Assembly (NCBI GenBank): GCA_963971285.1
Contig: OZ020262.1
Location: 7,411,036 to 7,475,035 of the forward strand
DNA: 64,000 nt
DNA from: Astropecten irregularis
Taxonomy: Eukaryota; Echinodermata; Asteroidea; Paxillosida; Astropectinidae
Direction of reading: 5' to 3'
The position numbers and the translations under genes are program-made. Of this stretch, positions 12,751-64,000 are shown piece after piece (position 1 is the stretch's first letter; each line of letters begins with the position of its first letter). Below the pieces are notes generated by a model. That model was not told the origin of the DNA and did not search any database. It worked only from the letters and a program-made list of their open reading frames with translations.

Positions 12751-12998
12751 GTCATAGCCGGCCAAATACATGTAAATTACATGGTTTTATAAGGGACCAT
12801 TGATGTTGTTGTTGCTGTTGAAAGTTCCTTTTTATTTGCCTGTTAATATAAAGGGTGTACACAGTCAAAACGAAACTTCCGTTGATTTTGACGCCTTACC
12901 CCTTTAAATATAATCGGTTTGGGGTGATATGAGTAGTCTGAGTATTTAGAACACATCTGAAGCTGCAGTTTGATACCATACTTGATGCCAAGGACTCA

Positions 12999-13480: not shown

Positions 13481-13502
13481 TCAACAGTGTTTTATACACA
13501 CG

Positions 13503-15643: not shown

Positions 15644-16760
15644 ACTGTACATGTGTGGTTAGTGGTTTTTGCCTAATTCTATAAGCACAGAGTTAAGTGT
15701 TTACTGTGTTGGGGACGGTAGTTTTGTTTCGTTGAACTTTACACTCTGACCAGTGAATCCTTCAGTAAAGACGTCGTTGCAGTTGCATGCAAAGTTGCTA
15801 GGAGCACCAGTGGTTCGTCACCGGAAGTTTGCCCGCCGACGAGCGAAGCAGAGACTTCTTGGGAGCGACGGACTTTACGGCACTGTCTTGCTCGTGACTT
15901 GGGCGACTGTGTTACGGGATACCGGTCGTGAGAACACGACGACGGTACGACCACGGAACTTGTGCTGACGCGCCGATGAGTTCCAGCCACCGCCCCTAAT
16001 TCATCCGGCACCTTCACTTTCGCTTGTGCCTCCCTCCCGGACGCTGAAGCGACCATCCGGCTGAACCGTCTTCCGGGGACAAGCGTCGACGGCTGAAACT
16101 TTCACAAGAGACTAAGGTAGTTCGAATTTATTGGCTGCTCGCCCACTAAATACTGTAACTTTTCGTACCCCTTTGGTTTTTGAGTGACTGTACTTTTGAG
16201 ATATTCCTTTAAAGGTAATATCATACTTTGGTAAGAAACCAAAACAGAAATGTTCACAGATTTACGTATACATTTCAGGGTATAAAGATGGTGGTGATAG
16301 AAACATACCGTTAAAATGTTTCCACCTGAAATGGTGTATTTATCCAGAAATTAGTAAAACAACGACCGAAAATCTTTTTGATCTTTTAAAAGATCAAAAA
16401 TAAAAGAGAAAAGACTTAAGAAATACTGTGGCTGTTTTTCACTGTTTTCTCAAAAAGTGGGCATCGTATGGGACTGAAATTTTCACAGATGACTGTTATT
16501 GTATTTGTCTTGATATTTATGCCCAATAATCTGTATTATTAATCTGTAGTATGATATTACCTTTAATAATATGAAACACTATTTATTTGAACGTGTTCTT
16601 GCTTGTGAATTGTGCTTACGTTTGACTCTTGTTGCCCCCCTTATTTCCGAGGGCGTGGGTTTACTTTAACCATTAGCGATTTGGGGAATTGAGGCACAAC
16701 AAATTGGGGCTTGTCCGGGAGACCGAAACTGAAACAAAACCTTAAAAACAGAGGTTAAAA
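15643..16760 (+). mobile_element. Possible LTR retroelement fossil (LTR and primer site)
   Basis: A candidate LTR ends near 16,700 in ACAACA and is followed by TTGGGGCTTGTCCGGGA. That sequence resembles the tRNA-Pro-type primer binding sites used by retroviruses and some Gypsy-like elements. Part of the region (15,643-15,720) recurs at 17,583-17,650. No gag or pol frame is recognisable beside it, and several repeats have inserted, so it is at most a broken, old remnant. The call is tentative. Confidence 0.3.
16213..16562. repeat. TTAA MITE family T, full copy
   Basis: A 350-base element with AGGTAATATCATACTTTGGT on the left and the matching inverted AGGTAATATCATAC on the right, flanked by TTAA (16,209-16,212 and 16,563-16,566). 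The interior motifs CGACCGAAAATC, TTTTTCACTGTTTTCTC and ATTTTCACAGATGACTG recur in at least eight other places in the window. The class is piggyBac/Kolobok-like by target site. Confidence 0.75.
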
Positions 16761-17046
16761 AATTGAACGTTCTGTTTTGGAATAAGGTCTGAACAACAAG
16801 TCAAACGATGTTTTTGTTGACGTTGTTGTGTTCCTGTGAATCCCAACTGTACTTGATTTTGTAGCAATCTGGATACTCCTTTTGATGTTAAGGAATTCGT
16901 AAGTAGGCCAGACTTATCACCACCACCTCCTTTCACCACTTAGAACAGTTAAGGAAAGTGGACTTAAAGACATAGTAAAACGAATAGAGAAATATCAATT
17001 TTTCCTCATGAATGACTAGTTTTCCTATACATGTACTTACATTTTG

Positions 17047-17985
17047 TACTGAAATTTTCACAGATTACTTTTATTGTATCTTCCTTGATATTTTTACCCA
17101 TGAATCTGTATTTCTTTTTCTTTTACTGTGACTGTTTTTCACTGTTTTCTGAAAACGTGAGCACCGTACGGGACTGAAATTTTCACAGATGACTGTTACT
17201 GTATCTGTCTTGATAAATATGCCCATGGATCTGTATTCTGTTGATAAAAACCTAATGTATGATATTACCTTTAATGCTCATGTTCTTGTGCTGGAGGCCC
17301 ATCGGCATTAAGTTGGAAAAATTAAAAGGCAGACTGGTCACACTTTTGTTGAGTTTACCTGAGAAAAAGAACTAGAACTAGATAGGTGGTATAGGTCCCT
17401 GGAAATTGAGAAGAGCTACGAAAATCTTAGGCAGGTGATACTCCTAGAAGAATTTAAGAATAGACTCCCCCTGAAGATTTTGTTTTTTATGAAAGATAGA
17501 CTGAAAAGAAAGTAAAAAGCAGATTTCCAAAAGATAATAATCAATCAGCTTTTCTTCCTTGGGGTGGTGTTATGGTGCTAAAATTGTACATGTGTGGATA
17601 GTGGTTTTTGACTATACTAAGCACAGAGTAAAGTGTCTACTGTTGTACCCAATCGATCGTTGTACACAATTTCCCCCAAAGGCTTAAAGGTTGTATCATA
17701 TACTTTGGTAAGAGACCAAAACAGAAATGTTCACAGATTTACGTATAACTTACAGGATATGGTGGTGGTGTTAGAAACATACAGTTAAAATGTTTCCACC
17801 TGAAATGGTGTATTTATCCAGATATTAGTAAAACAACGACCGAAAATCTTTTTGATCTTTTAAAGATCAAAAATAAACGAGAAAAGACTGTGGCCGTTTT
17901 TCGCTGTTTTCTCAAAAAGTTTGCAACGTATGGGACTGCCCACGAATCTGTACTTCTTTGACAAAAACCAAAGTACTCCCTTTAA
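17047..17985. repeat. TTAA MITE family T, two partial copies
   Basis: Bases 17,047-17,275 hold the right half, with its end-proximal segment partly doubled and a TATGATATTACCT end before TTAA. Bases 17,684-17,985 are a shortened copy starting TTAAAGGTTGTATCATA. Between them (17,276-17,683) nothing is recognised except a block shared with 15,643-15,720. Confidence 0.6.
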
Positions 17986-25190: not shown

Positions 25191-26083
25191 GTAAGTTTTC
25201 ATTTTATAGCGTAGGCTAGGCCTAGGAGTAGTCCTATGACTCAGCCTGCCCTATTCACAAAACTAAGTTACATGTACTTAAGCAAGTCAAAATTATGAGT
25301 TTGGGTTAAAATACTGTAGTAGGCCTACTGTTTACTGTAGTTTTCACTTTTTTTCAGGCCTCGGTACACGAAACGCACACACATAATGTAGTGACAGTCA
25401 TTGAATACGTCCCGGTGCAGTTCAATGTCCTAGATTAAACTAGACTGACGCGTTATACGTTACGTTTCAAACAAAGCAGGTCAAGTTCATGAACAATTTG
25501 CATACAATTGAAGGTACTCAGTCCGCGCATGTAGTGTCGGAGCCATTTAAATAATATTGTCAATAAATAAAACTTCAAAGAAGCCTGTGGGGATCTGACG
25601 TTTCCCTACAAATTGCTTGAAAAGTATTGGGTCATATTGAAAGGTTAATTTACCTGTATTCACAAACATGACTAAAACATGAAGACGATGAGTAATGTCA
25701 ACAATTTCTTTTAATTCCAGGAATAAGCTACTTCTTCCATCCTTCAAATAGTGTACATACAGACTAACAGTGTATTAAGATTGATACAAAATGGAAAGAT
25801 CTATGACAATGTGAACATAATCAAAGAAAAATGCTAGGAAAGCATCCCATTTACGGTAGAAAGACCCTATTTTAAAAACATATTTTTCAGTGCAGAAATT
25901 AAGAAATAACATTTAAGTTCTTTTGTCAAGACAGGAAGGGAAGGAACCTTCCCACACATTTTCATTAGATATGCAAACGGCAAATTAATAAAATAAGATT
26001 TAGTACATCATCTAACACGTCATTATGACCAAACAGTAATGTTTTTTATCCAGATTGAAACACAAATTTGTTTTTTTCCTTAA

Positions 26084-26701
26084 AGGTAGTATCATACTTT
26101 GGTAAGTGATGAGACTAAAACATACAATTTCACAGATTTACGTAGTAACTTTCAGGGTACGAAGATGATACTGGTAGAAACCTACCGTTATAATTTTTCC
26201 ACCTGAAATGGTGTATTTATCCATAAATTAGTAAACCAACGACCGAAAATCTTTTTGATCTTTAAAAAGATCGAAAATAAAAGAGAAAAGACCGTTAAGA
26301 AATACTGTGGTTGTTTTTCACCGTTTTCTTAAAAAGTGGGCACCGTATCAATGCCCCCAAGTATGAGACACATAATAAATATTATGTCATGAAAGTCCAG
26401 ATGATTATTAATGCTTCAAAGGATATATCGTAAAAACCTCGACCGATAGGATACCACTGCAATTTTGTAACAATACATGTATGTATAGGCCTTCATTGGA
26501 TCTTCGTGCATGTACCATGGAGGTAGGAAAAATTGACATTCAGAGGTTTCACTTCAGAGTGTGCCCCCCGTCTTGAAAAATCCTGGATCCGCGCCTGGTA
26601 TGGGACTAAAATTTTCACAGATGACTGTTACTGTAACTGTCTTCATATTTATGCCCATTAATCTGTATTTCTTTGATAAAAACCAAAGAATGATATTACC
26701 T
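26084..26701. repeat. TTAA MITE family T with an inserted element
   Basis: The family T copy is flanked by TTAA (26,080-26,083 and 26,702-26,705). It is split by a 249-base insert at 26,349-26,597 flanked by GTAT (26,345-26,348 and 26,598-26,601). The insert ends with AATCCTGGATCCGCGCCTG, a terminus type often seen on DNA transposons, but its left end does not mirror this. Three layers are thus visible: ISL2EU-like, then family T, then the insert. Bases 25,191-26,079 have no recognised gene. Confidence 0.65.
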
Positions 26702-28504: not shown

Positions 28505-28539
<35 letters not shown>

Positions 28540-28718
28540 AGGCTCCAGCTCTGACATCCATATGCTGAAAAGCTGAAGCTTTGTTTTCCTTTTCAAATCA
28601 GAAAATCTACTTCAGAACCGCTACCAAAAAACTCTATTTTGATACCCGTCAATGGATTCCCTAAATGGAGCCGGAGTGAGGGGGATAGGGAACCTGAGCT
28701 TCCGTTTCGTAAACGCCC
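28487..28718. repeat. MITE with GGGCGTTTACGAAA ends
   Basis: The ends GGGCGTTTACGAAATGGAGG and GGGCGTTTACGAAACGGAAG (right, read inward) are inverted. Inside the left end is a (GGCTCG)n run at 28,502-28,538. The same element is at 63,133-63,358 within a longer duplicated block. Frames reading Gly-Ser or Glu-Pro repeats here are the hexamer, not genes. Confidence 0.65.
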
Positions 28719-29019
28719 TATGTATGCAAAAAGAGACTTCAGTCTGCTGCTGTCAAAGTCTCGAAAGTCTCCCAATAATGGTCAATTACGAAACGTACTA
28801 CTGAATTTCAAAGTCAAAACAAACAAATTGTATTTGACACATTATTATTAAACTCCAGTACATGCACACAATCATTGTTATATTCAAGGGGTTGTATTTA
28901 AAGTGTATCATTAAACTTCCCATTTGCATTTTTTTTTCATGAGGAAAATGGTTGCGTTGAGTAAGTGTCATCATTAATTTCACAACAGTAAGCCGAGCAC
29001 ACGGTTTTGAATGGCGCCC

Positions 29020-29277
29020 TATTTTGATTAAAACAAGAAACTGCGGTGGTGTTTATTGATCTAAATGCACTAAAACTCCGGCTTGGTGTGTGGTGCGCGA
29101 TTTAATCCTGAAAGAAACACGGAGTTGCAAACATACTCGGCATGGACAGCATATCCCGGATTTCCCCGCCGGTCTTTTGCTCATGATTAGCTTTCCAGCT
29201 TCCCAGATTTCAATAAAAGATGAGTGGTGGTGTACAAAATAATATACTGACACCACCGCAGTTTCTTGTTTTAATCA
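29020..29277. repeat. MITE with GATTAAAACAAGAAAC ends
   Basis: GATTAAAACAAGAAACTGCG (29,027) is mirrored by CGCAGTTTCTTGTTTTAATC just before 29,278. A second copy is at 63,660-63,918 and runs a few bases further on the right (ATAGAGGGCAC), matching the GCGCCCTAT at the left. The copy here stops at the start of the 13-kb element. Confidence 0.65.
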
Positions 29278-29681
29278 GGGGCCGATCTCATAAAGCTCTG
29301 CTACGCGTCGCAACTCGATTAGTCCACTGCCTAGACTGTTTTCGTATCGTGTGGACTTTGACAGAACGCGCAGTACTACGCCCTCATGCGCCCAGGCACG
29401 CACAACTTATCAGTACCCGAATACAGTCCAGTCCATTTGTTCAATTTTTCCGGAAAATTCCGGAGAAACTTTATTCCGCCCACACGCACAGTGCACGTTG
29501 CTGATTGGAAGACTACGCGTATATGCTAATTACTAACACTTCGTATCGTACGCGTAGTATCCGGTCGGTACATTGGATATGTAACTGTACATTATATCCA
29601 TATATCCATGTACTTGTACTTGTACTGTGTTTACATCATGTGCATACTGTACGTGTGTTTACGTTTCGCTAGCTAGTCAAT

Positions 29682-32600
29682 ATGGCGGCTGCAAAGCATA
29701 CAGGAGATGAAATTCGGAGAGCAATCGTCCATGCTTCTCATATGTTTGGCCTGTTAGAAGGATTCAGAAATGAGCAACATACTGCCATTGAGTCATTTCT
29801 TAAAGGACGCGATATTTTTGTGAGTCTTCCGACCGGATTTGGGAAGAGCTGTATATTCCAGGCTGCACCAATTTGCGTTGACTTTCTGAATGATTTGGAG
29901 AAGCCTGTGGCATCTCGCGGACAAACACATTCTGTGGTGGTCATTGTGCTACCACTAAAATCGTTGTTAGCAGATCAGCTGACCAGAGCAAAAGAATTGG
30001 GCATAAGTGCTGTCGACTTAACAGGAGGCATCACAGATGAGATACGTGAAGGAACTGCTTCAGACAAGTTCTCAATTTTGTTCACTAGCCCAGAGTGTTT
30101 GCTGTCAGAAGAGGGAAGAGATCTTTTGAGTCTCTCGGCCCTGAGAGAACGGCTGTGTGGCTTTTTCATTGATGAAAGTCACTGTGTTTCTAAATGGTAA
30201 GCGAAGTTTGAATGATTTTTATAGAGCCTAGGCCCCTATATGATATTAAAAATTAATGGCAACGGTTACATACTGTGGGTAGGCCTAAAGGGAATAAAAA
30301 CAACTGTTTGTAAAGAGACTTTAGGCTTTGCTTAGGCTAAGCCTAAGGTTAAATTTGTGGAAAGAGGCTAGGGCTTTAATTTTTGAGGGATATTATGGAG
30401 TAAAAACGAGAACGAAGACTTTTCACAGATGCACTGATGGCCGCAGACAAAAATATCACCTAGTTTCTGCTCTCAATGTATTGGCTTTTGCTACGTTGAG
30501 TCAGTGTACTGTATGTGTATGGTACCAGACTAAACTAGACATGTTAGACTAGCGAGACCAGACAAAATTTCAAGTTTGCAACAATCGCGCAAGAAAATTG
30601 TATTTTCACTCTGAAATGTTGCACAAATTTCTTCTTTCTGGGGTAGGACTCGGGAGACAGAAACATTTGCTGAAGTCCAAAATATCATTTTGGAATGTCA
30701 GTAGAAGCTATTAATTTGTTTTTTATTCCCTTTTAGAAGTATTTCCTTAGGTATCGTACCCAATAAGTAACCGTTACTGAATTAATCAATTAAATCACTT
30801 CCCCCCTTCCCCGAGGTGGCTGAAAAAGTAGCCTATAGGCTCATAAATTGTTTGGCAAGTTTGGGTGTGTCTCATTCCTTGACCCATGAGTCAACTAATT
30901 ATTTACGCATGTAGGCTTATGCCTGATGATAGGCTAGGCCTATACCCAAGTATTAAAACTTGACAATTTTAGTAAGTGAAAATATAGGGGCCAGTATATA
31001 GGCCTAAAGACAGCACTGTACTAGGCCTAGGCTAGGCCTATAGTCTTTGTTGTAGGGGCCTACTTCAGCCCGCTCATACTAGTACTAGTCATACCATGGA
31101 GCTAGGAAAGAGAGGCCCGGTCTATTTACCATATGAGTACCGGTATTCTCAATGGTGGGCAATATGTCACTTCCTGTGTGTTACATGTGTTTGTTTTGAT
31201 AATTACTCCAGGTACATTGTCAACATACGTTCAGTGACTTCATTTCCAAATGGGAAAAAAATTGATGAAAGTAAGCCAACACAATATTAATATTGGGCCT
31301 ATTTTCATTTCTAATGACAGAAAAGAAATAATTCTCTCGAGCAAGTGGCAAATAAGGAGTGACAATAATGGGTTAATGCCCCTAGTGTCTTGCAACAACC
31401 AGGCGGCCATTGTGCAGAATTACAGTGCTTTAGGGCAAATTCAAGCTCTCACATACATTTCCATGATGACTTCATGTTGGGTAGGCTTATGTTTGTTTAT
31501 GTTAGTTTCCAGATGCAGACATAGCAAGCAAAACTGTCATGAAATTCACTATTTTTGTTGCACTCAAGAACATTACAAACCTACCCAACATGAAGCTTAC
31601 CACATCAGTGTAAGTATGAGAGCTTGATTTTTCCCTAAAACAACATAATGAACAGACAGTAGTCACAGTACAGTATGAGTATATAGGCACATTGTGTGTG
31701 TCTGTCTACAGATGTATACTGTTTTGAAAAACCTTTTGTTTTGGAATACATGTAAATCCAAGTATTGTTCAATAAACTGTTTCAGGTATCCATGCTACTT
31801 TAACTAGTTTAATTCAAATTTGTCAAATATCTTATCTTTATTCATTGTTTTCATATTTTTCTAATGTGTGTACAGGGGAAATTCATCTCAAGACACAAAG
31901 GCATTTCGCAGCGCATATGGAAAACTAGCTGAGGCTCGAGCTAAAATGAAGGCAAACGTTCCCACAATAGCACTTACAGCAACAGCTACCAAAGATGTCA
32001 GAAGCTGCATCACAGACAATCTGGGTCTTCGCAATTATGTTCTCATCAAGAAATCACCAGACAAGATTAACATTAAACACGTGGTTTTGAAATCTCGGTC
32101 AAAAGACTTAGATACAATCTTTAAATGGATGATTGATGAAGTCAAAACAACAGGGCCTGCTTGCGAGAGGACAATCATATACTGTCAATCAAGGAAAGTC
32201 GTGAGTGACATTTTTGCCACATTTCTTGCCCTACTGCCACCCAGTCACCACCAGTATGTGAACATGTATCATACTAACACACAAAATGAAATCCAAAAGT
32301 ACATCGTAGACAGCATGGCAGATGAGAATGGTACTGTGAGAATCCTGATTTCCACAATAGCATATGGCATGGGGGTTGACTCAAAGGGGGTACACCGTAC
32401 CATCCTGTTTGGCCACACCATTGATTTGGATGATTATATGCAAATGACTGGCAGAATAGGCAGGGATGGAAAACAGAGTGTTGCAATAACATTGTGTTAC
32501 CCTGGTGATAGTGCTGGCAGAGCGACATCAAATAGTATGAAGAACTTCCTTGCAGGAGGTCATTGCAGAAGGGACTTCATAAGAGAAGAATTTGGTGAAA

Positions 32601-33136
32601 AGTCTGGCATTGATCTACCCATAACACCACATCACTGTTGTGATGTCTGTGCCAACACTTGCCAGTGCGGTTCCTGTGATGTAACACAGTTTGAGAAAAA
32701 CATGCTGAATGCTCCGAAAGTGAAGAACTGTGCTGTGGAATTACCTATCAGCATTCCTGCCCTAAATGCTGTTGACAAGCTGAAAAGAGGACTGGAAGAG
32801 TACAGACTCAGTCTCATGCATGGAGAATCAGAACCTATGTATTGCGGCCCCGACCTTGTGAGTGGTTTCTCAAGAGCAGTGATGGAACAGGTTGTTAAAG
32901 ACTGTAATGTTGAATTTGACTTCCAATCCTTCCAGCAACGTTACGCTTTTCCAAGCCGTCAAATAGCAGCAGACATTTGGGGAATTGTTTGTGACAGTTT
33001 ACAACGGTCTCATGTGGAAGATCGGACTCTGTTCACAGATGAAGAACTTGATTCAGACGACTTCAGTGAAGAGTCAGACAATGGAGAAGATGAATACCAG
33101 AAAGCCATTATTGTCAGCAGTGATGACAGTGATTAA
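29682..33136 (+). CDS. RecQ-type ATP-dependent DNA helicase, 2 exons
   Basis: Exons 29,682-30,196 and 31,876-33,136 are joined by a GT-AG intron in phase 2 and encode 591 residues, with no break seen. Motifs in order are the Q-like FRNEQ (near 28), Walker A LPTGFGKS (near 49), TSPE (near 141), DExH box DESHCVSKWG (near 164), ALTATAT (near 202), IIYCQSRK, STIAYGMGVD and QMTGRIGRDG. After the core comes a RecQ zinc subdomain (CRRDFIREEFG, then HHCCDVC and further Cys). The tail is acidic (DEELDSDDFSEES), and no HRDC domain is seen. RecQ enzymes unwind DNA 3' to 5'. The loop after DESH, usually GHDFRP-like, reads GNSSQDTKAF here. The start has A at -3 and G at +4. Lying inside the 13-kb element and facing the DUF6589 gene, it probably serves transposition rather than the host. 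A host paralogue is the alternative. Confidence 0.85.
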
Positions 33137-33994
33137 ATTTTAATTACGGTGAGAATATGTGCTTTTAAGTCTATCACTAACAAAACAGTATACAAATATA
33201 AACCTTGTTTGAGAGTGGCTATATGCATTTTTGTGGCCACCATGACATATCACATTATGGGCAAATCACAACAGGGGTAACTGCAACCCGTTTTTGTGCT
33301 TATTGTGGCAAATGACCGCTGTTTTAATAACTTTTTTGTTTACATTTCACTTGAGTTCTTCGTACCGTAACTAAGCAAACAAAGATTATTCAGAAAAATC
33401 ATGCCACATATAAAAAAAAAACACTTAAAGAAAATGTGCTCAGATTTGTAATGTACAATATATCGCATGCCATTATGTGCACAGATATTTGTAAAGCGCA
33501 AACATCTCACATCACAAAATATGCGCAGATATTTGTGAATTTGTGATGTACGATCAAACATCACAAATATGTGCTAAGGTATTTGTGCTCAGTCCTGCAC
33601 ACAATTCTTTGCTGACTTGCGCATGATATGCATAGTTAATTTCACATAGTTAATGGAACGCGCGTCCCAAGTGTCATGTGTCATGGCGCCCACCACATCT
33701 TGCCCTGGGTACGAAACTACACTATATACACACACATACGTAGTGGCAATGAGAGCAGTTATATATGCATGTCCATACCCCTCCCCCCCCCCCCCCCCCA
33801 GGAATTGTAAATGACCAGAAGAGGGGTCCTATTTCATGTACTAGCCTATGTATAGGCATAATGCGTGCCCTTTTTAAGTAAATCATGATAAAGAACGAGA
33901 AAGTTGTGTTAGGGGCCTATAAGGTGTTGGAAATTGACAAACAAGTTCCCATAATAAACCGTGTTATATTTCATTTTGGTATTCAAACCAACAG

Positions 33995-34229
33995 GGATTG
34001 GTGTCTGGAGCAGCCATTATCTTGTAGGGAGGTGACATAATCACCATGGAGGAGCTGGCTACCCAGGGGAGTCCATTCAGTGCTGTGTCTTCGGTCAACA
34101 CCCAGGTCATTTAAACAGACAACAGACCCTGATTCCAGGCTTCATCAAGCCCCACTATGCTATCCAGTGAGCCCCGTCCCCCAAGCGTTGCCAGCACATC
34201 AATATCAATGCCTGCACAAGTTCGGCCCA
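33995..34229 (+). other. Candidate exon between the two transposon genes
   Basis: A segment between an acceptor-like CCAACAG and a donor-like A|GTAAGT holds a short frame starting ATGGAGGAGCTGGCTACCC (34,046) and stopping at 34,114 (22 residues). The helicase stop at 33,136 is followed by ACG|GTGAGA, another donor-like site, so this could be a 3' UTR exon of the helicase transcript. No family is recognised. The C-run at 33,780 and the rest of 33,137-33,994 hold nothing else. Confidence 0.2.
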
Positions 34230-34411
34230 GTAAGTATTTTGCCTTTAACTGGTCATCATACTTATTTAAATCTAAATTTGGTCAAAATGTAAAAATTCAT
34301 ATTTTGTTTCAGTATACAATTTGAGAGTACCTGGAAAAAAATGACACAGTGGGGAAATTAGCCCCCCCCCCCCCCCCTCAAAAAAAAAACCCAACAACTA
34401 CATGTAGACCA

Positions 34412-34644
34412 GGGGCCAATTTCATAAAACAGTTAAGAATTTGCTAAGACATTTCTGTCTTCATAAAAACGGTTAACAATCAAATTTTCACGTGTTGTGT
34501 ATCACTTGTGATTGTTTTTTGCCTGTTGTTTGCTGACCATAATTATCAAATGGAATTTTCAATTGTGGTTTAATTGTTTTATTGGGCGAGACATTTTTAT
34601 GCTAAGCAAATTTTTGTGCTTAACAGTTTTATGAAATTGGCCCC
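34412..34644. repeat. MITE with GGGGCCAATTTCATAAAAC ends, copy 1
   Basis: A 233-base element with inverted ends GGGGCCAATTTCATAAAAC and an inner TTGCTAAG block. Relatives are at 44,369-44,634 and 60,318-60,553. The ends resemble those of the 13-kb element (GGGGCCGATTTCATAAA), which hints at a shared or related transposase. It is inserted in the non-coding middle of the 13-kb element. Confidence 0.7.
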
Positions 34645-35376
34645 AGCTAGGGATCAGTAAGAAAAGTCGCAGGATATTCTCAAAAAAATGGCAACATACG
34701 GAAACAGAAATCTTCACAGATTTGCCCATAAAAAAAAAAGATCTTTGGAAGATAAACACTCCTGTAGATATGTACATGTATAAATAAATAAATTGTCTAT
34801 AATAATTGACCTGTTGCTTGTATCATCTCAAATGTTTCATCACCTTCAAAGTCCAATTTAAACAGTTTAAAACAGACCTGACTCATCAGAATTTCAGTTT
34901 AACCTCTGCCAGTATCAGTCTACATGTATACATAGACATACATGTATTGTATATATATCAGTCTAATATCAGTTTTAACTAGGTGACGTCTTGCTTTATA
35001 ATGATTTGCAGTACCTTAACATGCAAAGAAAATAACTAATATTGTGAAACCATTTCGAACCAAAAACTGTAAAGGTAAAACTGAAGAGTAAACTATGTGA
35101 TGAGGGGTTATTGTGAATTTAATACATATCACATACATAAGACAGGCTGGTTATTTATTGCAGGAAAAAAAGTTTCCTACTATGGCAGGAACATTTCAGT
35201 CACAATCAGTGAACACAACCAGATACAACTTTTAAGAGGACTGCACCCTTGGGTCTCCAAATGACAGAAAAAAATTGCTGTTGTTGCCTTATAGTAAAGC
35301 AGGAGATCAACAATGATGACATAATAATGTGTCATTGTGTGCTTTATTAGTCTTCTGGAATGGAATTTAATTCCCT

Positions 35377-35728
35377 TTATAAAGCGTATTATCATACTTT
35401 GGTAGGACACCAAAATAGAAATCTTCACAGATTTATCTATAACATACATAATGGTATAATGATGGTGATGGTAGAAACATACCGTTAACATTTTTCTGCC
35501 GCATATGTGTTTTTCCAGAAAAAGAGTCAAACTAATGACCAAAAACAATTTCGATCTTTACAAAATAAAAAAAAATTGTGAAAATATTTCAAAAATATTG
35601 TGGGCGTTTTTCATTGTTTTCTCAAAAAGTAGGCACCGGAAATTTCACAGATGACTAATGCTGTATCTTCCTTGATATTTTTGCTCATAAATTTGCATTT
35701 CTTTTAAACCAAAAACCAAAGTAGGACA
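35377..35728. repeat. TTAA MITE family T at the DUF6589 stop codon
   Basis: The copy runs from a decayed left end (GCGTATTATCATACTTTGGT) to AACCAAAGTAGGACA, followed by TTAA at 35,729-35,732. The TAA stop of the minus-strand DUF6589 gene lies inside this TTAA. The MITE thus forms the new 3' flank of the gene without touching its reading frame. Bases 34,645-35,376 hold only a partial family T fragment (about 34,655-34,760) and unassigned DNA. Confidence 0.6.
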
Positions 35729-38700
35729 TTAATGGACTGTGAATTGATTTTGCCTCGACAGTGTTTTAAGAGTGGCAGAAATCCATCTATGAAGGTCTGG
35801 TACTTCAAGCTTAGCGAGAACTGTAACCGGAAAATCTGGGAACTTTGAATGTTTTCGACCAGGACACTCTTCGAAAAGTTGTTCTTGGTGTAGTTCTTCT
35901 GCCAAAGAAGTGACATCATTTCTTCCAGTCTGCTGGCGCTTGGCAGAAGGCCTCTTTACTTCCAGTTGCCGATCGACCATAGTGAGAACTTCATGCACCT
36001 TCTGAGCTGACCTACTAACACGATCCACACTCTTCTGGGTGACTTTTCCCCTCAACCCTCGACATTGTTCTTTGAATACCCTGTTGTGGTGCTCCATAAC
36101 CCTATCAATCTCTACATTACACATGGGTTTTCCTTTAGTATTTATACATCGATTCCAGACTAGCTCATATGCTAATCGAGGACTGAGAAAGCATTTAACT
36201 TGAGCTAGCATACGCATTATTTGATAGCTATATTTCGGTTTGTTGGCTGCTTTACAGTGCAACAGTATAAATTTGTACAATCTCATTATGCGGCCGCCAT
36301 CGCCCATCCGTCTTGCGTCAGTGAAGTCAAGAGCCAACATGCCCATGCCCAGTGCACATCTGGTGTAGTTGACTACTCGGTCCTGGGTAGGTGTAGCTTG
36401 CACATCTTGAGATGGAGCCTTCGACTCAGTTCTACCTGATTCTGAGTGGACTGACTTCTCATGTTTGACAAGACCTCTTCTTGATTTGTATGTTTTGTTA
36501 CACATACTACAGCGCCACACCAGTTCATCGAGGCTGATGTCTGCATCACTTGGTAGCATGTATTTGTCAACAAATGAGCCCATAATCTGCTCAGCGTACT
36601 GTTTGTAATTACCGTGTTCTTCCAGCTTGAAGACATTCTTTGTTGGCTCTTCAGAGAGATCGTCAATGCCAAAGTATCGCATTGCTGCAGCTAAAACGAG
36701 TGCTGTGGTGAATTTCTCCAGTAGATCTGATGCAGCATTTAGGTTCTTCATTGGGTTGATGGTTACATTTCTGGCTTCCAAGTAATTGCGTGCTGAGTAC
36801 AGTGTCCCTTTATCCCCTGCCGAGGAGACATCATACAGGTGTCCCCACAATACCTACATACAGATAAAAGAAAATTAACTCAACGTATTACTTAAAGGGT
36901 CTGTGCAATAGGAATATTACTGTTTCAGGGTTTACAGCAAATTTTTGGTTTGTATGCTAATTAAAATTTCCATATTCATGAGCAAACTGTGATGTCATCT
37001 AGGTAACTGAGAGCGGTAAGCTGTGCACAATAACTTGGGGTTGTTTTATAAGTTTTTTGAGGACCTTTTCCTCCTCAATATGTTTTGTTTTGCTGAATAT
37101 GTTCCTTTCACTCAACTGGTGGTGTCATTTGTTTTGCCAAACCATTTCTGTGGCTCAAGTTTGCTTTTTTAAGTTTGATGTTTTTTCATTATATTTTGGC
37201 TGTTGGTTCCCTACATGAGTATGAAAATCCCCCATTTTTTAAAGGCATTCAAAGGAAAACCAAATGCTGGTTTGAAACCAAAATAAGACTTGCCATTCAT
37301 TATCTGTCAGTAAATTTTCTGTATGAAGGCAATAAAATAACATAACTGAAAAAAAAAACTGCAGGAAGCCAGGAACCCTTAAAGATTTTATAACTACATG
37401 GAACTTGACCTAAGTTGAATGTCACACTTACTCTGCACTCCAGGAAACTTCCTCAAATGACAGTTTTTAGACAAATTTTTACCTCGGCACAATATTCATG
37501 CAACTTAATTCTACGTTGATTGATAACTGTATTTCTTTGACGTCCCTTGAAGTGGGTTCTACTGAAAAGAGCACTTCATATACTTTCGTCGCTGATTGTA
37601 AACCCAAACATTGTGAAAAAAATAGTGTTGCTTATTATGTTAATACTGCAATGTATAAACTGACCCTTTGTAATGCCTTACCTGGTAGAAATTGGCAAGG
37701 GCGTGGAAGTCGGATATGACTGGCATCAGGCCTTCCAGTCTCTTGCTTGCTGTTGAAGAATTACGTTGTTCCTCAATGCAATTGCTCTCCCGTTCACAGG
37801 TGAGAAGGTCTCCCGCACTCAGGATTGTTGTAGGATGTTCTGTGTTGTGGCCTGGGACGTAGGAGTGCATATGGTGCATGATCTTGATGATGCCTTCGGT
37901 TGTGTTTTCATTTTCCATAAGCACTCCCAGATTAACCTAACACACAAAGGAAAACACATAAATTAGATGTGAATGAACTCCGAGAAAGAAACAAAAACTG
38001 TTTTCGGGGGGTGATTCTTTGGCAAAAAACCTCCTGTTTTTCTCCTCATGATACTCTTGCATAAAAAAAGACTGATATCTTCCAGAATGCAAAGAGCACC
38101 AAGTGACATTAATTGACTGCAAAGGCAGGATGAGGATTGTCCCATGAGTGTGGGCACAAAGACTTGGCAAGCACATTTTCTATGTTCTTATTGGTAATTT
38201 CATTTTTGTGCAAGAATGCAGGAAAACTTCCAAGGCATACAGGTGTTTTTCTGTGCAAACTGAACACTTACAGTCAAAAACCATGTGAATGAAAGCTGCA
38301 ATACATATACATGAGCCTTACGTTCACGTTGCCTTTTCCACCATTCCCCTATAAAAAGCTCATACTGTACAACAAAATAACAAGAAAGCAATACATGCAT
38401 GTACCCACCACTTGAGATTTAGAGTTCATCTCTTTCATATGTTGATGGGGAATCTCAGAGGGAAGGGTGTCCAACATTATCTTCAATGACGGAATGTGCT
38501 CTGCAATCATCTTTGCTGCAATAATCATCCAGTCTCTTCGTAGGGACTTGTTATCACTGACACTGGGTAAGAAATCAATACTGTCAACTGAATGAATAGA
38601 GGCACCAGGCTGGCAATTAGATAGGTGATATGCAGTTACTCTGTGTTGCACAGCAAACATCTGTACCATGTGCAAGTCCTTCCCGTAATTGTTTCTTGTT

Positions 38701-41700
38701 GGATGACGAGCTTGAATGACCATATCAACATTGTCCATGACTAGCTGATATCCTTTGTCCGTTCTGCTGGAATTGAAAATATCCAGTGCCTGTGAGTCTC
38801 CTGTTTGTTTCAGGTTGTGTTCACTCTCCCCAGCTTCTTGAACCACCTTGGCCCACTCTCTAACCTCTTCATCATAGTTCTGCCCAAAATCAACTTGCTT
38901 GGACAATGCCGTGCTGTACGATGTTGTCACTCCTCTGGTGGCAAGTCTCTTAAAAACAGATTTCTTGGCAGCTCCCTCCTTAAGACTAAGTGAATTCACA
39001 ACTTGATGGGAATTCATATTTTGACTTCTGCAGTTCAAAAGAATACTTGCTGATGTCAAAATCATTGGCATGAGTGATTCCTTTGTTTTATGTGTGTTCT
39101 TTTTGAGATGGGGATTCTCTGCTGCGGCCTGTAGTACAGCCAGCAATGTTGGTGCTGTGGCTCTCAATTCTGATTCTTGTTGCCGTACATCAAATGAACT
39201 TATTGCCGACAGAGATGACACTCTAAATGATGATCTGTTTCCTGGTCTGCATAGCTCATCAGCTTCTCTCTGTATGATCTGTAGGTATTTCTTTTCTGTC
39301 CTCTTGTTGATAACCGCCTAGAAGGGAAAAAGCATCATATTAATTGTTATCTATAATGAAAATAGAGGAAAACTGCTAACTATCAGGCCTTGATTTTTAA
39401 GGAGAGTGAGAGTGATCACTCTCCTCCGCTCTCCTTAACGTTCTCCAAGGAGAGTGAAAAAAAGAGCTCCTTAACAATTTAAGTAGAGCTGCCCTTTTTC
39501 AAAACATCACATACATTTTTTCAGCCAACATTTACCCTTTGTGGGAAATACAAAAACATTTCAACAGGACAAGCAAAATTTAGCATGTTCTCTTTTTCAG
39601 ACATCACCGGACACATGCGGAAACTTGGTTTAGCAAGAGCAAACTGCTCTCTTTATTCATTAGTATGAGTAGGCCCTATGTTAATTTAAGGAGTTGAATT
39701 TGTACCTCAAACTTGATTTTTGTTAATAGCGAGAGCAAATCACTCTCCTAAATTTTCTACGTTGATTTTAGGAGTGTGATTTGCATCTCTACTCATTTTT
39801 ATTAAAGTAAAGGCCTGAACTATTCACTTACTGGACAAGTACCGGTACAGTAAAACCTCAATAAGTCCAACTCTAATTCCTTTCAAGACCCCCCCCCCCA
39901 AGAAAAAACAAATTAAACCCTTCTACAGCCATTGAAGAGTGCTAGGACCAATTTCATTTTTATAGTGCATTTTATTTGCAAAAGCCAGAGCCCACAAAAT
40001 ATCAAATGTCAAGTCAGATCAAATGTCAAATGTCAAACATGCTCGTCTGCTGTACATAGCAATAGTCACTGCATATAGGCCTACTAAAAAAGGTCTGTTT
40101 CTAGCTACCTCCAAACTCGGTGATGGATTTGATCCCACTGTGCGCTCACTGTTGTCATCCCGTGAATTGAAACAACCAATTCCTGAAGAGATGATCATCA
40201 GTTTCTTTTCCTGATGCTGTGAAAAACAAATCAGAACAAGCACTCACTGATTACTAGCCATGAACTTTGTAACTAATAAACTGACACGTTTCGATGCTAA
40301 CAGGATCTTTCTCAAAGGCTTTGAAATATAGATCGAAACGCTTCAAGCCCCCTTACTCCAAGCATTTTATATACATTGATAAATACAATATTCAGTAAAG
40401 AAATGAGTAGAGTTATGAATTTATTGAATAAACAGAAATGTTGAAACAATTTGTCATAAACGCTCAGATAAGGCGCGGTTCTACAGCCAATATTTTGTTT
40501 TTATTGTGGGGGGGGGGTTAGATGAACCAGTTTTGTCTATATTATTATTAACCTTCTCTTCTGTTAATAGTTATCTTATCATTAAGACTAAATAAGAGTA
40601 GAAATTAGAGTAGAAAATGTTTTTCAAGTAATTGGCACGTAATAACTGGACAAAAGATCCGGAATTTTTCAGCATATTTTATTAATTTTTTTCATTGCAT
40701 CTTTCTTTTCTTTTTTCTTCTTTTTTTTTGGGGGGAGGGGTATAGACACAATATTTTGTTGGGGGGAGGGAGGGGACGGGGTAGCTACCCCTATCCCCCA
40801 GTACAATTACCTTGCCTGCAAATGCTGGATATCACATTTGTTTTAAGAATTTGAAGGCATCTTTACTAATACTATTACTATTGTTGTTGGTGTTGCTGCT
40901 GTAGCATTTAATTAGGCCTAGCCCAGGCCTAGCCCAGCGCAGGCCCTGAGTGAGAGGAATATTTCTAGGGAGTAGGCTAGGGGTGGGCCTGGGGCCTATA
41001 AGGGCTGGCCTACACCAAAAATACATTGCCAATTGTAGGCCATAGGCCTAGGCCTAGGCCTATAGCTGCTTTGTTTTATCAATGCTTGGTCGGAGTTATG
41101 TCAGGAGGGCCTGACACGTTTCGATCCATAGTAGGCTAGTACTAGTAGTACTAGCTAGTAGGCCTAGGCTATACTATAGTAATAGTATTACTGCATGATC
41201 TATCTCAAGAAAGATACAACAACATAACGGTTAATTAGTCCACCATAATCATATGTCATGTAATTTGTAGGCCTACGCGGTGGCACGTTAATTAGTTTTA
41301 AGTTAACTTACAGTGGGCCTACTCACCCTTGATGATGGTGTTCCGGGAGAAAAACGAGCTGGTCGTTTGGCACTCAAACCTTGAAGGGGAGAGCCTGAAG
41401 TAACGTTGGTCATGATGTTAGTGACAGCACTCAGAGGAGTCCTTGACACTGGGCTTGCATGACTGGCAGTGGAGCTGGAGGGAGATCTTGGTCGTACGCG
41501 GTCACAATCATGCCTGTTCGTGGTCTTCTCGAAGTGAGCTTTCAAAACTCTAATTTGCTCTGAAGATTTGTGATAAGAGATCACCTTAGCGGCACACTTT
41601 TCACAAACAAACTCTGATTTGTTCTCACTTATGTCTCCGAAACTCGCTACAAGTTTTTCACGTAGCCCAATTCTTTCACTTCTCACTGAATTAATTCTAT

Positions 41701-41773
41701 GATAATGCCTGCAAGTAATCAGAGTGACATTACAGACAATGCACCATCTGAGATTAATCTTTGGGTTCGCCAT
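35729..41773 (-). CDS. DUF6589 putative transposase, 4 exons, 911 residues
   Basis: Minus-strand exons at 41,773-41,327, 39,317-38,409, 37,936-37,682 and 36,853-35,729 are all joined in phase 0 at GT-AG sites, with no break seen. The start MANPKINLRW has A at -3 and G at +4. Residues about 10-75 hold CIVC...CEKC, a four-Cys zinc finger. The next 75 or so are Ser/Pro-rich. Exon 2 carries LVMDNVDMVIQARHPTRN (near 310). Exon 3 carries NLGVLMENENTTEG and SAGDLLTCERES, then RLEGLMPVISDFHALANF. Exon 4 carries VLWGHLYDVSS and GTLYSARNYLEARN, then a C2H2 finger (CSMCNKTYKSRRGLVKHEKS). These are the hallmarks of DUF6589 proteins, which are numerous in invertebrates and fungi. The Asp of DNVD and of GDLLTCER would be the first two acidic residues of a DDE site (inference). 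It faces the helicase gene and starts near the right end of the element. Confidence 0.8.
39318..41326 (-). other. Long first intron of the DUF6589 gene
   Basis: This 2-kb intron contains GGCCTA-rich DNA (40,905-41,180), several G/C homopolymers and a fragment with GACACGTTTCGATGC. No separate gene is seen. The other introns of this gene are 472 bases (37,937-38,408) and 828 bases (36,854-37,681), also without features. The 1.7-kb helicase intron (30,197-31,875) is likewise empty apart from GGCCTA-rich stretches. Confidence 0.55.
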
Positions 41774-42380
41774 TTTGACAACGATGCACACGTACGTACG
41801 TGCGAACGAGTACAACTTATCTGTGTATGATCGATACGTAACATAACATACACCAAAATTAACTTGAGCTGACTGCATGCAGTATAGTACTGTGCTGATA
41901 ATAATTGTGTACGTATTATACGATTGAATCCGTTGCAGCTATGCTTCACTGTTAATTTTGAGCGATCCCATTGGTTTAACCTTTTGGGCAGCGTAGACTA
42001 TTTACATGCATTATTCATATATTTGACCTTTGCGCCCGGGGTCACACCTCATTATAGTCTAGAGGGCGCTCTCGAATTGCAACAAATGATCTGGACGTTT
42101 TTTTCGCACCAGCATCGCGGCATGCATGCAGCGCGCATAGTACAATGGCCAATGCACATCACAAAAAAAAGGTACAGAGTCTGGACTACAACTCGATTTG
42201 CGACGCATACTAGCAGTGACGCGTCGCATCTATGCAGTGAGTCCATAGATAAAGGATGCGTCTTGACTCAGCGACGCGTCGTAAGTTTTATGAAATCGGC
42301 CGTTGGTATCATCGTCCCTATTGGGATGAAAATACATGTATATATATTTTTTAAATTGATTTATTGATTTTCTTTTTCAG

Positions 42381-44138
42381 ATCGTGCCATCACGATGAGG
42401 AAGAAGAAGAATCGATTGTCACTTTTCAAGGCGTTAATGGCTGTAACGATGCTGGGTAGTGTCTGGTGGTTGTTAATCAATCGTCATGGAAATGACTTCC
42501 TCTTAATCGAGCGAAACGGTGCCTGTGCCAAGTGCGATGACAACATGAAACCAATGAATCGTACGAATCGTACGACAACCATCATTGGTAATAGGAGTCA
42601 TTCCGTTCACACGACGAGGGCGAGTGCTGATACCAGTCTAACCGGAGGTCATGGCATGACACTGGCTATACATGTCTCTACATCCAAATCGTCAATAGTC
42701 TGGTACTTATTCTGTACCTTCTTGCGATCTGCTGCTATCTTCTGGCCCCGTGAATACGGTTCAATCAATCTGATATTCGACGCAGAATCTAAACAGGACC
42801 ACGACCTGGCTTCTACTCTAAAGGCTCAAGAAGACGCATTTGGTGTTGCATTTGACATGAAGTTCCAGCCTTTACCAGACGATCCCACGGTGCTCACCAA
42901 AATACCATTTAGGAAAAGTAGAGGGGTTGGCTACTGGAGACAAATATGGAACGGTTACTTCCTAGATCTCTACGTAGACACACCAGTTATAGTTTGGATG
43001 GATGCTGACGTCATGTTCACATCGCCCGTTACCCCTGAGAATATCTTCAACGGGGACAAATTGAGAGTCTTCGGTAGAATCACAGGGGAGTACACAAACT
43101 TAAACAAAGCCACATTCGCAGCATTTGGAAAGGGGCTAGTCTCCAACTGGGGCTTCTTTCCCACGTATATCTGGAGAGACACGGTGACCAATTGCCGAAA
43201 TCATATCCTCAAATATCACAACGTGAGTAAACACATAAATTCCGTCAGTTATCAAGAAAAACTTGAAGCATTTGATGTAATTTTGTTTTGCTTTCTACAG
43301 GTATTAATTAACATTGTTAACAATAATTCGTATGTAACTATAGGCCCTAATCTACTTCATTTTATCCCAATGACACACCCTGTTGAAACATGTGTACACG
43401 CGGATAACGCATTACCCACTATACCAAACTATTTCTTAAAAATGACATGTTTTGTTTGCAACAGCATTTGAAGCATATCATTTGAAGCCAATAGATAGCT
43501 ATTTTAACGTGCTAATGTGTGGATATTTCTTTGGTGTTAATTGGCAGGTTAGCCGTTTTGAAGATGCTTTCTTGAAAATTCACCAGCCCCAGTTCGGTTA
43601 CCCAGCGCCTATCATAATGAGTTATGCCTTCCACTTTGAACATGATCGGTACGACTGGCACATCCACGTCCCCGAAGGCCAGCTTGAGAGTTACAACAAG
43701 AAGTACTGCAAACCAGGTTGCGTCAAACCCGAAGAAACCATACCGGATGTTTCCATCATCATCCATAAGCCTTTCTTTCACTCAAAGGGTCGTAGTCTGA
43801 GTCCTTTTGAACAGGGATACTGCATCGCCTTACAAAATATTAACCAGTCAATACCAACATGTAAAGCCTTCGAAAATGACACTGATACACAACTGCTTAA
43901 GTACCAAACCGCGAGAGATAAAGTTAACGGCCGTGGCCACTGGTGCAATGGTAATCCAATGAGGAAAATATGTGCCCAAAAAATCGAGTCGCATTTTCAT
44001 AATTTTGCTAAATATTACAAAAGAGGTCTTTATGATTTAAATCTTAAAAGGGTGTCAGCTGTTGAAAGGGTAGCTGCAGGAATGAATAACAGTGTTACTT
44101 GTCCACCGTTAATACACACGAATAGTTCAAATCCATAG
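42381..44138 (+). CDS. Type II membrane glycosyltransferase (DxD), 2 exons
   Basis: The first coding exon follows a TTTTTCAG acceptor, so a 5' UTR exon lies upstream, possibly beyond the 13-kb insertion. ATG is at 42,395. A basic N-terminus (MRKKKNR) precedes one membrane segment (ALMAVTMLGSVWWLLI), typical of Golgi enzymes. N-glycosylation sites follow. The lumenal part has VIVWMDADVMFTSPVTP near residue 200, a DxD metal-binding motif of GT-A glycosyltransferases. It continues with FGRITGEY and then, in exon 2, DSYFNVLMCGYFFGVNW and CKPGC. The frame is kept if exon 1 ends at 43,226 (A before GTAAAC) and exon 2 starts at 43,465, giving 501 residues. The stronger-looking donor at 43,223 (GTGAGT) would not fit that acceptor. 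Donor sugar and acceptor are unknown. It stands alone beside the transposon. Bases 44,139-44,368 hold nothing recognised. Confidence 0.7.
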
Positions 44139-44368: not shown

Positions 44369-44634
44369 GGGGCCAATTTCATGGAGCTGCTAAGCACACA
44401 AATTTGCTTAGCACAAAAATGTCACGCTCAATAAAACAAACCACCGTAAACAAATTCATTTGATATTTATGGTCAGCAAACAACAGCCAAAGAACAATTA
44501 TCAGCGATACAAAACACATGGACATTTGGTTGTTAACCCTGTTTTTATTAAGACAGAAATGTCATGCTTAGCAAATTTTTGTGCTAAGCAGTGAATCGGC
44601 ATTCCGTGCGTACGTGCTTTATGGACGGCCCATA
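44369..44634. repeat. GGGGCCAATTTCAT MITE, copy 2, with fused fragment
   Basis: The left end is intact and the interior matches copies at 34,412 and 60,318. The right end is lost near 44,600 and replaced by a fragment of the GGGGCCGTCCATAAAG family (CTTTATGGACGGCCC, to 44,634). Bases 44,640-44,820 resemble the Helitron-associated segments near 22,050. Confidence 0.55.
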
Positions 44635-45578: not shown

Positions 45579-45744
45579 TTAAAGGTAGTATCATACTTTC
45601 GTTTTTATCAAAGAAATACAGATTCAAGGGGAAAATATTTAAACAAATACAGTAACAGTCATCTGTGAAAATTTCAGTCCCATACGGTGCCCACTTTTTG
45701 AGAAAACAGCCACAGTATTTCTTTAGTCTGTTCTCTTTTATTTC
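45579..45744. repeat. TTAA MITE family T, truncated copy
   Basis: It starts CTTAAAGGTAGTATCATAC and follows the family to about 45,744, where the next MITE begins. Bases 45,297-45,578 are unassigned. Confidence 0.55.
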
Positions 45745-45875
45745 GACCCGATTTCGTAAAACTTACGACGCGTCGCAGAGTTAAGACGCATCCTTTCTGT
45801 ATGGACTCACCGCATAGATTCGACGCGTCGCAGCTAGGACGCGTCGCAAATCGAGTTGACTTTTTGAAATCGGCC
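45745..45875. repeat. MITE sharing ends with the 13-kb element
   Basis: A 131-base element with ends (C)CCGATTTCGTAAAACTTA and GGCCGATTTCAAAAAG. The interior has AAGACGCATCCTTTCTG, GGACTCACCGCATAGAT and several GACGCGTCGC. Nearly the whole of it matches 42,180-42,301, the right end of the helicase/DUF6589 element, in inverted orientation. It is a probable non-autonomous derivative. Confidence 0.65.
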
Positions 45876-45998
45876 ACAGATCTTAAGCGTGAATTCATCT
45901 TAATTGTTAAGTAACACGTGATGTCACAATACAAATCACCATGGTGATACTGAACAACTCATCTTAAGATTAATCTTAGTGCTTCGTGAAATCGGCCC
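45876..45998. repeat. Small MITE ending in GAAATCGGCCC
   Basis: It abuts the previous element and ends TTAGTGCTTCGTGAAATCGG followed by CCCC. The interior repeats CATCTTAAGATTAATCTTA-like palindromes. The left end seems lost at the junction. Its end type is again close to the 13-kb element. Confidence 0.45.
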
Positions 45999-46207: not shown

Positions 46208-46689
46208 GGGATGCACCCAAGTAAATAGTCCCAAAATCCGTCCACCGAGCTCAGTAATAAAAGTTAAGCACTCAATAATAAACGAGAGAGTTCTGAGAGC
46301 TATGAAACTGAGGGATTGAAGAAATATGGCACTGGACCTCCTGCCTGGACGCTGGGCTTCCATTTGTGACCATTTGTGATGCAATTGGGTCAGAAACTGG
46401 GTTTATTTCAGCCGCTTTGCAAACGGATGTTTTTTTGAAAATGGCTTCTGTGACTGGAGTGATCCATACCTTGTTTTAGGGATGGTCAGCTGAGAATGAG
46501 TATATCTAAAAAAAAAAATCAATGGTCAACCCACCATCAAATAAAAGGAAAATGAAACGTGACATGTTCATCATCATTTTTTCTGTGTAACCTGAACACC
46601 TGTGAGAGTTCTGTCTATTTTTAAATGATTTTTGAAGTATAAGGATCTATCACAGTTGTCTATGGGAGTTTATTTACTTGGGTGCAACC
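46208..46689. repeat. MITE family G, copy 3
   Basis: Same family as 2,118-2,597 and 12,999-13,480, slightly more diverged. The target duplication is unclear. Bases 45,999-46,207 hold ACGCA-rich DNA without a gene, and 46,690-47,000 is unassigned. Confidence 0.7.
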
Positions 46690-47004: not shown

Positions 47005-47369
47005 AGGTAATATCATACTTTGGTTTTTGTCAAAGAAATACAGACTCATGGACAAAAATATCAAGGAAGATACAATAACATGTCATTTGTGAACATTTCA
47101 GTCCCATATACGGTGCCCACGTTTTGAGAAAAACAGTGAAAAATGGGCACATTATTTCTGAAGTCTTTTGTCTTTAATTTTTGATCTTTAAAAGATTAAA
47201 AATAATTTTGGTCACTGGTTTAACTCTTTTCTGGATAAATGCTTTTCGGGCAGAGAAATCTTAACGGTATAATGTTTCTACCATCACCATCTTCATACCC
47301 TGTATTAGTTATATGTAAATCTGTGAAGATGTTAGTTTTGGTATGCTACCAAAGTATGATACTATATCT
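47005..47369. repeat. TTAA MITE family T, full copy
   Basis: AGGTAATATCATACTTTGGT start, inverted end before TTAA. Flanks are TTAA at 47,001-47,004 and 47,370-47,373. The interior includes a TGATCTTTAAAAGATTAAAAA palindrome also seen in other copies. Confidence 0.7.
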
Positions 47370-54510: not shown

Positions 54511-54680
54511 AGGTGTTCGGGTTCAAGCCGAACACCTATTGTTATTGTTCGAGTTTTTTTTAGGTGTTCGGGTTCAAGCCGAACACCTATTGTTATTGTT
54601 CGAGTTTTTTAGGTGTTCGGGTTCAAGCCGAACACCTATTGTTATTGTTCGAGTTTTTTTTTTTTTTTTTTTTTTTTTTT
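54511..54680. repeat. Triplicated 50-base hairpin module and poly-T
   Basis: Three copies start at 54,511, 54,562 and 54,611. Each has AGGTGTTCGGGTTCAAGCCG closing a 10-base-arm hairpin with CCGAACACCT, then ATTGTTATTGTTCGAG and a T-run. The last T-run is about 27 long. A fourth copy is at 55,656. The module sits at the 5' side of the array units. Confidence 0.75.
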
Positions 54681-63132: not shown

Positions 63133-64000
63133 TATGGGCGTTTACGAAACGGAGGATCAGGCTCCAGGTCTGACATCCACATGCTGAAAATATTAGTTGT
63201 GGTTTTTCATTGAAGCTGAAGCTCTGTTTTCATTTGAAAATCAGAGAATCTACTTCAAAGCCGCAACCAAAAGCCTCAATTTGATACCCGTTATTTCAGA
63301 ATAGATTCCCGAAATGGAGCTGGAGCGGGAGGGGAGCCTGAGCCTCTGTTTCGTAAACGCCCTATGTTAGAGATAGCAAAAAGAGACTTCAGTCTGCTGC
63401 CCTCAACGTCTCGAAAGTCTCCCAATAATGGTCAATTACGAAACGTACTACTGAATTTCAAAGTCAAAACAAACAAATTGTATTTGACATATTATTATTA
63501 GACTCCAGTACATGCACACAATCATTGTTATATTCAAGGGGTTATAGTTTATTTGTATCATTAAACTTCCCATTTGCATTTTTTCATGAGGAAAATGGTT
63601 GATTTGAGTAAGTGTCATCATTAATTTCACAACAGTAATCCGAGCACACGGTTTTGAATGGCGCCCTATTTTGATTTAAAACTAAAGTGGTGTTTATTGA
63701 TCTAAATGATCTAATTGATCTGGTGCGGGATTTATTTCTGAAAGAAACACGGAGTTATAAGAATATTCGGCATGGACAGCATCTCCCGGATTTCCCCGCC
63801 GTTCTTTTGCTCATGATTAGCTTTCAAGCTTCCCAGATTTCAATAAAAGATTATTGGCGGTGTACAAAATAATATACTGACACCACTGCAGTTTCTTGTT
63901 TTAATCAATAGAGGGCACCATGCAACACAGCGTGCTCGAATAACTGTAAACGTCGATGAAAACTTGCGTAGTGTGATCTGGTAATCATCGTCCCTATTTG
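63133..64000. repeat. Second copy of the left flank of the 13-kb element
   Basis: Bases 63,133-63,906 match 28,487-29,277 nearly throughout, including both MITEs and the block from AAAAAGAGACTTCAGTCTGC to AAGTGTCATCATTAATTTCA. About 70 bases after the match ends, GGTAATCATCGTCCCTATT (63,975 on) matches GGTATCATCGTCCCTATT at 42,306, just right of the 13-kb element. The two halves of that element's flank are thus nearly adjacent here. Confidence 0.7.

Follow-up and report, generated by a model that had tools for sequence, protein, structure and literature searches.

The title of Kojima (2020), as cited in PMC10799480 and PMC10045372, describes AcademH as DNA transposons of animals and fungi that encode a helicase, and the occurrence of a RecQ helicase in Academ has likewise been mentioned (PMC3627910). 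In PMC10045372, AcademH elements are given 9 or 10 base pairs (bp) together with a helicase, whereas AcademX elements are given 3 or 4 bp together with a nuclease. An element that is probably of AcademH type, and in which a protein of the Pfam family DUF6589 is most likely the DDE transposase, occupies positions 29278-42303 of a 64,000-nucleotide stretch of the genome of the asteroid Astropecten irregularis (assembly GCA_963971285.1, contig OZ020262.1, positions 7,411,036 to 7,475,035; hereafter the window). The initial annotation had already taken this segment for a helicase-bearing, Academ-like transposon. The RecQ-family helicase and a presumed 9-bp target duplication speak for that proposal, which is likely to be correct as to the kind of element.

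The element comprises two convergent genes, a RecQ-family helicase on the forward strand and a DUF6589 gene on the reverse strand, enclosed by inverted ends at 29278 and 42303. These edges were set by comparison with a second copy of the flanks, which lies where the window closes. The match of the left flank to this second copy ends exactly where the left end (GGGGCCGATCTCATAAA) starts. On the right, the bases from 42304 on agree with 63979-63998 in 19 of 20 alignment columns, the alignment containing a single gap of one base. Its score is 33, whereas 5000 Markov sequences derived from the same stretch score 28 at best and 3186 other segments of the window 26. The second flank copy, which could stem from duplication of the locus or belong to a dispersed repeat, is empty and lacks the element; the 13,026 bp with both genes were therefore inserted as a unit. 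The arrangement of two long convergent genes between inverted ends, as first proposed, is thus confirmed by the gene models, the ends and the empty flank copy, and the borders given at that time (29278-42301) were right to within two bases. The idea of a single mobile unit holding both genes is supported by the empty copy, the shared ends and a related miniature inverted-repeat transposable element (MITE).

Terminal inverted repeats are typical of the Academ superfamily, and they are present here: the terminal 15-mers on the left and on the right share 14 of their 15 bases. Exact matches to GGCCGATYTCATAAA occur in the window only at 29280 on the forward strand and at 42287-42301 on the reverse strand; with up to three mismatches allowed, 13 matches are found where a mean of 3.02 is expected by chance. 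With up to two mismatches, the motif GCGACGCGTCGC is present six times in the 64 kb, against 0.33 expected: one occurrence falls in the left end, two in the right end and three in the MITE at 45743-45877. Terminal, ACGCGTCGC and AACTCGA-like motifs are borne by the left end as well as by the right. Over 111 bp, the right end (42189-42299) is 90% identical to the inverted sequence at 45748-45858, and the MITE is probably a non-autonomous relative. Ends similar to those of the element (GGGGCCAATTTCATAAA) also bound other short repeats in the window.

The helicase gene consists of two exons without an internal stop and encodes 591 amino acids (aa). Helicase motifs, from FRNEQ through CRR...FGE...CCxxC, lie in the expected order, and the product is matched by the Pfam families DEAD (4.6e-18) and Helicase_C (4.4e-13) and by NCBIfam recQ_fam (2.1e-60 over residues 21-451, below the curated cut-off of that family). 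Its best match in the PDB is RecQ (4tmu, 5e-32), followed by DNA helicase 1oyw and the Bloom and Werner proteins. The RecQ core claimed for this gene is thereby borne out. The pattern CRR...FGE...CCxxC is presumably that of the RecQ zinc-binding subdomain; the Pfam family RecQ_Zn_bind matches with an E value of 0.046 and 14.9 bits, compared with a cut-off of 25. The helicase ends in AIIVSSDDSD (33104-33133), which we take to resemble a SUMO-interacting motif.

The DUF6589 gene has five exons with GT/AG introns in phase 0 and encodes 947 aa. The earlier count of 911 residues corresponds to this model minus its second exon of 36 aa. Pfam DUF6589 (PF20231) matches residues 432-877 with an E value of 1.7e-42 and reaches position 408 of the 410 in the profile; no Pfam family exceeds its cut-off in the N-terminal region encoded by exon 1. 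The longest stop-free runs in the element measure 423, 374 and 322 codons, compared with 233 for the longest run in 300 second-order Markov sequences modelled on the element itself.

Conservation in the DUF6589 profile was gauged by substituting residues of the window protein and rescoring the product against the Pfam profile. In a piece of 101 aa (28.8 bits), G530A gave 24.1, D531A 22.1, D564A 31.0 and H566A 20.6 bits; in a piece of 116 aa (60.4 bits), E827A gave 52.1, N830A 55.8, D823A 53.5 and E803A 64.2 bits. A second set comprised S563D and S563C (28.4 each), S563G (31.4), D564L (33.4), F565A (24.3), R554A (25.8), L533A (26.5), T534A (24.4) and W576A (26.9) in the shorter piece and H828A (55.5) in the longer one. 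The largest falls, in this order, were those of E827A (-8.3 bits), H566A (-8.2), D823A (-6.9) and D531A (-6.7), whereas replacement of the acidic residues D564 and E803 by alanine raised the score by 2.2 and 3.8 bits, respectively. The DUF6589 profile thus conserves D531, H566, D823 and E827. DDE transposases in general combine an RNase H fold with the residues D, D and E. The conservation of D531 and E827 fits the second D and the E of such an enzyme, short of proving catalysis, and D380, D531 and E827 are candidates for the triad.

A C2H2 finger is located between D531 and E827. With its ligands replaced, the score against DUF6589 stays at 105.6 bits, and with 41 residues removed it rises to 106.6 bits, from which it follows that the finger is a private insertion. 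Exon 5 has matches to 22 distinct PDB sequences up to an E value of 10, of which the best (0.0094) is to a zinc-finger protein and falls on the C2H2 finger; a weak match in PHROGs (0.00068, function unknown) also lies over the finger, and another is found at 0.045. Relatives were sought in viral and prokaryotic contigs, in part with patterns that draw partly on DUF6589-like motifs. In viral contigs, four stretches carried one protein pattern and none was a relative, a second protein pattern matched no stretch, and the DNA patterns had a single match. In prokaryotic contigs, 28 stretches carried the pattern of exon 5, again with no relative among them, and a further pattern had no match. The viral match is surrounded by stops on translation and was taken as chance; its record contains no DUF6589 match in a family search that also matched none of 14 control genomes. 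Since the scanned collections consist of viruses and prokaryotes, these scans say little about animals. Among the 5.39 million papers of the literature collection searched, none contained the name DUF6589, and its accession appeared only in one unrelated physics paper.

The insertion site may hold traces of a target duplication and of a subsequent loss. The segment 28985-29052 matches 63880-63947 in inverted orientation (84%), and this inverted repeat is longer in the second copy, where part of the 71 bp missing beside the element forms its outer arm. The filled site has therefore probably lost flanking DNA, and the insertion site is not clean. In the second copy, TAATCA stands on either side of the lost stretch, at 63902 and 63982. 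Insertion would have made a 9-bp duplication of TGGTAATCA, and a later deletion between the two TAATCA repeats would have taken away what remained of the left target duplication along with 71 bp of flanking DNA. The junction fits such a 9-bp duplication followed by a microhomology deletion: beside the left edge of the element, 6 bp match the expected duplication if its length is set to 9, and any other length between 0 and 15 gives one matching base at most. At 0.29% of window positions, at least one of the lengths from 2 to 12 yields 6 or more matching bases. The right copy of the presumed duplication reads TGGTATCA, with one base fewer than in the second copy.

Compared with the described systems, the locus resembles AcademH in a DEAD and Helicase_C helicase of RecQ-like type encoded beside the putative transposase, and would also resemble it in the target duplication, which is 9 or 10 bp in AcademH and presumably 9 here. 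AcademX would share the superfamily, provided that DUF6589 is an Academ transposase, but differs in its duplications of 3 or 4 bp and in a nuclease instead of a helicase (PMC10045372). At lengths of 3 and 4 no base matches the expected duplication beside the element, where the left copy is damaged. No nuclease domain was found by Pfam in the two gene products, the open reading frames of at least 120 aa at 31238-31627 and 35180-35557 lying outside the scan, and AcademX was dropped as no nuclease was seen in these products.

Several observations weigh against the assignment. The label AcademH-type, which follows published descriptions of Academ elements, falls short of proven membership. An intact target duplication is not visible at the element, the 9-bp reading resting on 6 bp, and inspection by eye of the MITE-like repeats at 34409-34646, 45743-45877 and 60315-60557, at which both borders are visible, disclosed no 9-bp duplication. 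The right-hand match to the second flank copy covers only about 20 bp because the window ends at 64000. With regard to the proteins, the recQ_fam score of the helicase (204.8 bits) stays under the curated 219.8; D380 (VMDNVD), the would-be first D, falls outside the Pfam DUF6589 match; residues 364-638 have no sequence match in the PDB up to an E value of 10; and AlphaFold2 models made without an alignment were unusable, with a predicted local distance difference test score of 35 for the whole 947 aa and of 38 for residues 505-871. In addition, tblastn at an E value of 1e-3 detected no second copy of either protein elsewhere in the window.

A helicase-bearing transposon of another superfamily, either KolobokH as the nearest rival or an unnamed superfamily with a DUF6589 transposase, is an unlikely alternative. 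Much as presumed for the element, KolobokH combines a RecQ helicase with a DDE transposase, in its case that of Kolobok, and in a rhodophyte Kolobok the RecQ gene lies on the complementary strand, as it does here. KolobokH is reported from fungi only, and a C/DxxH motif is common to Kolobok, hAT, P, MuDR and Dada (all from PMC9587614). The DUF6589 protein contains no [CD]xxH anywhere in its 947 aa, and three residues before H566 the DUF6589 profile scores G above S, C or D. KolobokH was dropped on the absence of this motif between the second D and the E. Kolobok elements target TTAA. The right flank of the element starts with TGGT instead. Neither this nor the missing motif carries weight against an unnamed superfamily. 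The DUF6589 protein also has CxxC and HxxxxH between D531 and E827, reminiscent of the CxxC and H(3-4)H that PMC12730594 places between the second D and the E in the CMCT group (EnSpm, Mirage, Chapaev, Transib). In the DUF6589 protein, however, this pattern forms a single C2H2 finger from which the profile score gains nothing, and the CMCT group was dropped since the finger is a private insertion.

It is very improbable that two unrelated domesticated or host genes came to lie by chance between two MITE-like repeats. The resemblance of the right end to the MITE at 45743-45877 and the similar terminal motifs at several places in the window speak for such an arrangement; against it, the whole 13 kb is missing from the second flank copy, with homology stopping at both inverted ends, and the left and right ends have their terminal, ACGCGTCGC and AACTCGA-like motifs in common.

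If the AcademH-type reading is adopted, a simple course of transposition can be proposed. The DUF6589 protein, as putative transposase, would bind the terminal inverted repeats and the subterminal ACGCGTCGC repeats, perhaps via its zinc-finger-like regions, excise the element and reinsert it by means of a staggered cut of 9 bp. The RecQ-type helicase may serve to clear or open the ends, or else to process a strand-transfer or repair intermediate. A more tentative proposal is that of a transposon superfamily with a helicase whose transposase is DUF6589, be it AcademH or a sister, in which the RecQ partner might be directly involved in transposition and, for instance, unwind the ends to set a stagger of 9-10 bp rather than 3-4 bp.

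The initial annotation had further considered both genes intact and had read this as a hint of recent activity. The seven exons are indeed free of stops and frameshifts, but one dispersed repeat has a copy nested in the element that extends as far as the DUF6589 stop codon and includes it. This repeat (35380-35731) matches its relatives without gaps through the stop, as if the repeat had supplied it. Other copies end in TTTAA or TTAA, and the DUF6589 stop sits within a TTAA, so that on these matches the stop codon could be either repeat-supplied or original. The original C-terminus may therefore have been longer, and the last residues of the protein may not be original. The DUF6589 domain, which ends at residue 877, is nearly complete. 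The dispersed family has further copies at 16210-17928, 26081-26698, 45591-45708 and 47008-47364; the copies examined, except the one within the element, show TTAA at their visible ends, which suggests TTAA-targeting MITEs.

Recent activity is not supported in view of the nested repeats, the loss of 71 bp of flank and of most of the presumed left duplication, the repeat at the stop codon and the lack of a second copy in the window; open frames in both genes do not show recent movement. That the element is a dead or immobilised remnant with its frames still open is a matter of activity and not of identity, judged apart from the alternatives above, and its probability falls somewhat short of an even chance. 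The two repeats nested between the genes, the lost flank, the missing intact target duplication, the repeat whose match takes in the stop codon of the DUF6589 gene and the absence of another copy in the window all favour a remnant. Seven coding exons in two genes with GT/AG borders and without stop or frameshift, and a DUF6589 domain that extends almost to the end of its profile, speak against it.

Table 1. Coordinates, within the window, of the features of the element and its surroundings
Feature	Position	Strand	Remarks
Whole element	29278..42303		13,026 bp; flank homology with 63154-64000 halts at 29277 and resumes at 42304
Left flank	28535..29277	+	Second copy at 63154-63907, 84% identity over 743 bp
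Left end	29278..29319	+	GGGGCCGATCTCATAAA, then GCTACGCGTCGC and AACTCGAT
RecQ helicase exon 1	29682..30196	+	FRNEQ, LPTGFGKS, DESH
RecQ helicase exon 2	31876..33136	+	ALTATAT, ISTIAYGMGVD, QMTGRIGRDG, CRR...FGE...CCxxC, acidic tail
Nested MITE-like repeat	34409..34646		Ends GGGGCCAATTTCATAAA; relatives at 44369-44580 and 60315-60557
Nested copy of dispersed repeat	35380..35731		Match takes in DUF6589 stop codon 35729-35731
DUF6589 exon 5	35729..36853	-	Inserted C2H2 finger, D823 and E827 (DRVMEHHNR), stop codon
DUF6589 exon 4	37682..37936	-	D531 (SAGDLLT), H566
DUF6589 exon 3	38409..39317	-	D380 (VMDNVD)
DUF6589 exon 2	40109..40216	-	36 aa, absent from the first count
DUF6589 exon 1	41327..41773	-	CxxC...CxxC N-terminal region, zinc-finger-like by eye
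Right end	42189..42303	-	ACGGCCGATTTCATAAA and subterminal ACGCGTCGC repeats
Related short MITE	45743..45877		135 bp; similar terminal and subterminal motifs
Stretch of empty second copy missing beside element	63908..63978	+	71 bp; flank comparison

The window as a whole has the character of animal-like draft sequence, with intron-bearing genes, many repeats and one run of N at 4056-4255. The gene adjoining the element (42395-44138) carries a VWMDADV motif, which we assume to resemble glycosyltransferases; two pieces of it had no Pfam match at an E value of 0.01. Four head-to-tail copies with a spacing of 977-1038 bp occupy 54668-58294 and are 80-99% identical to the reference copy in a 300-bp sample and 77-93% in another sample. 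Inverted arms of 115 nt at 10277-10391 and 11148-11262, 99% complementary and 756 nt apart, probably delimit a small young inverted-repeat element. Long inverted copies are found at 2104-2605 and 12991-13494 (93-97% complementary), with more pieces at 46279-46689 (91-94%).

Since helicase-bearing Academ elements have already been described, the interpretation is less surprising than it first seemed. New here are the occurrence of DUF6589 within an element of this type, the unoccupied second copy of the flanks and the deletion scar. A link is thereby made between a Pfam family whose function is unknown and a mobile element for which the ends are defined and which has an empty flank copy and a helicase partner. 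DUF6589 genes gain a testable function, which would be that of a transposase if the AcademH-type reading is true, and the element offers a system in which the part played by a RecQ-type helicase in transposition can be studied.

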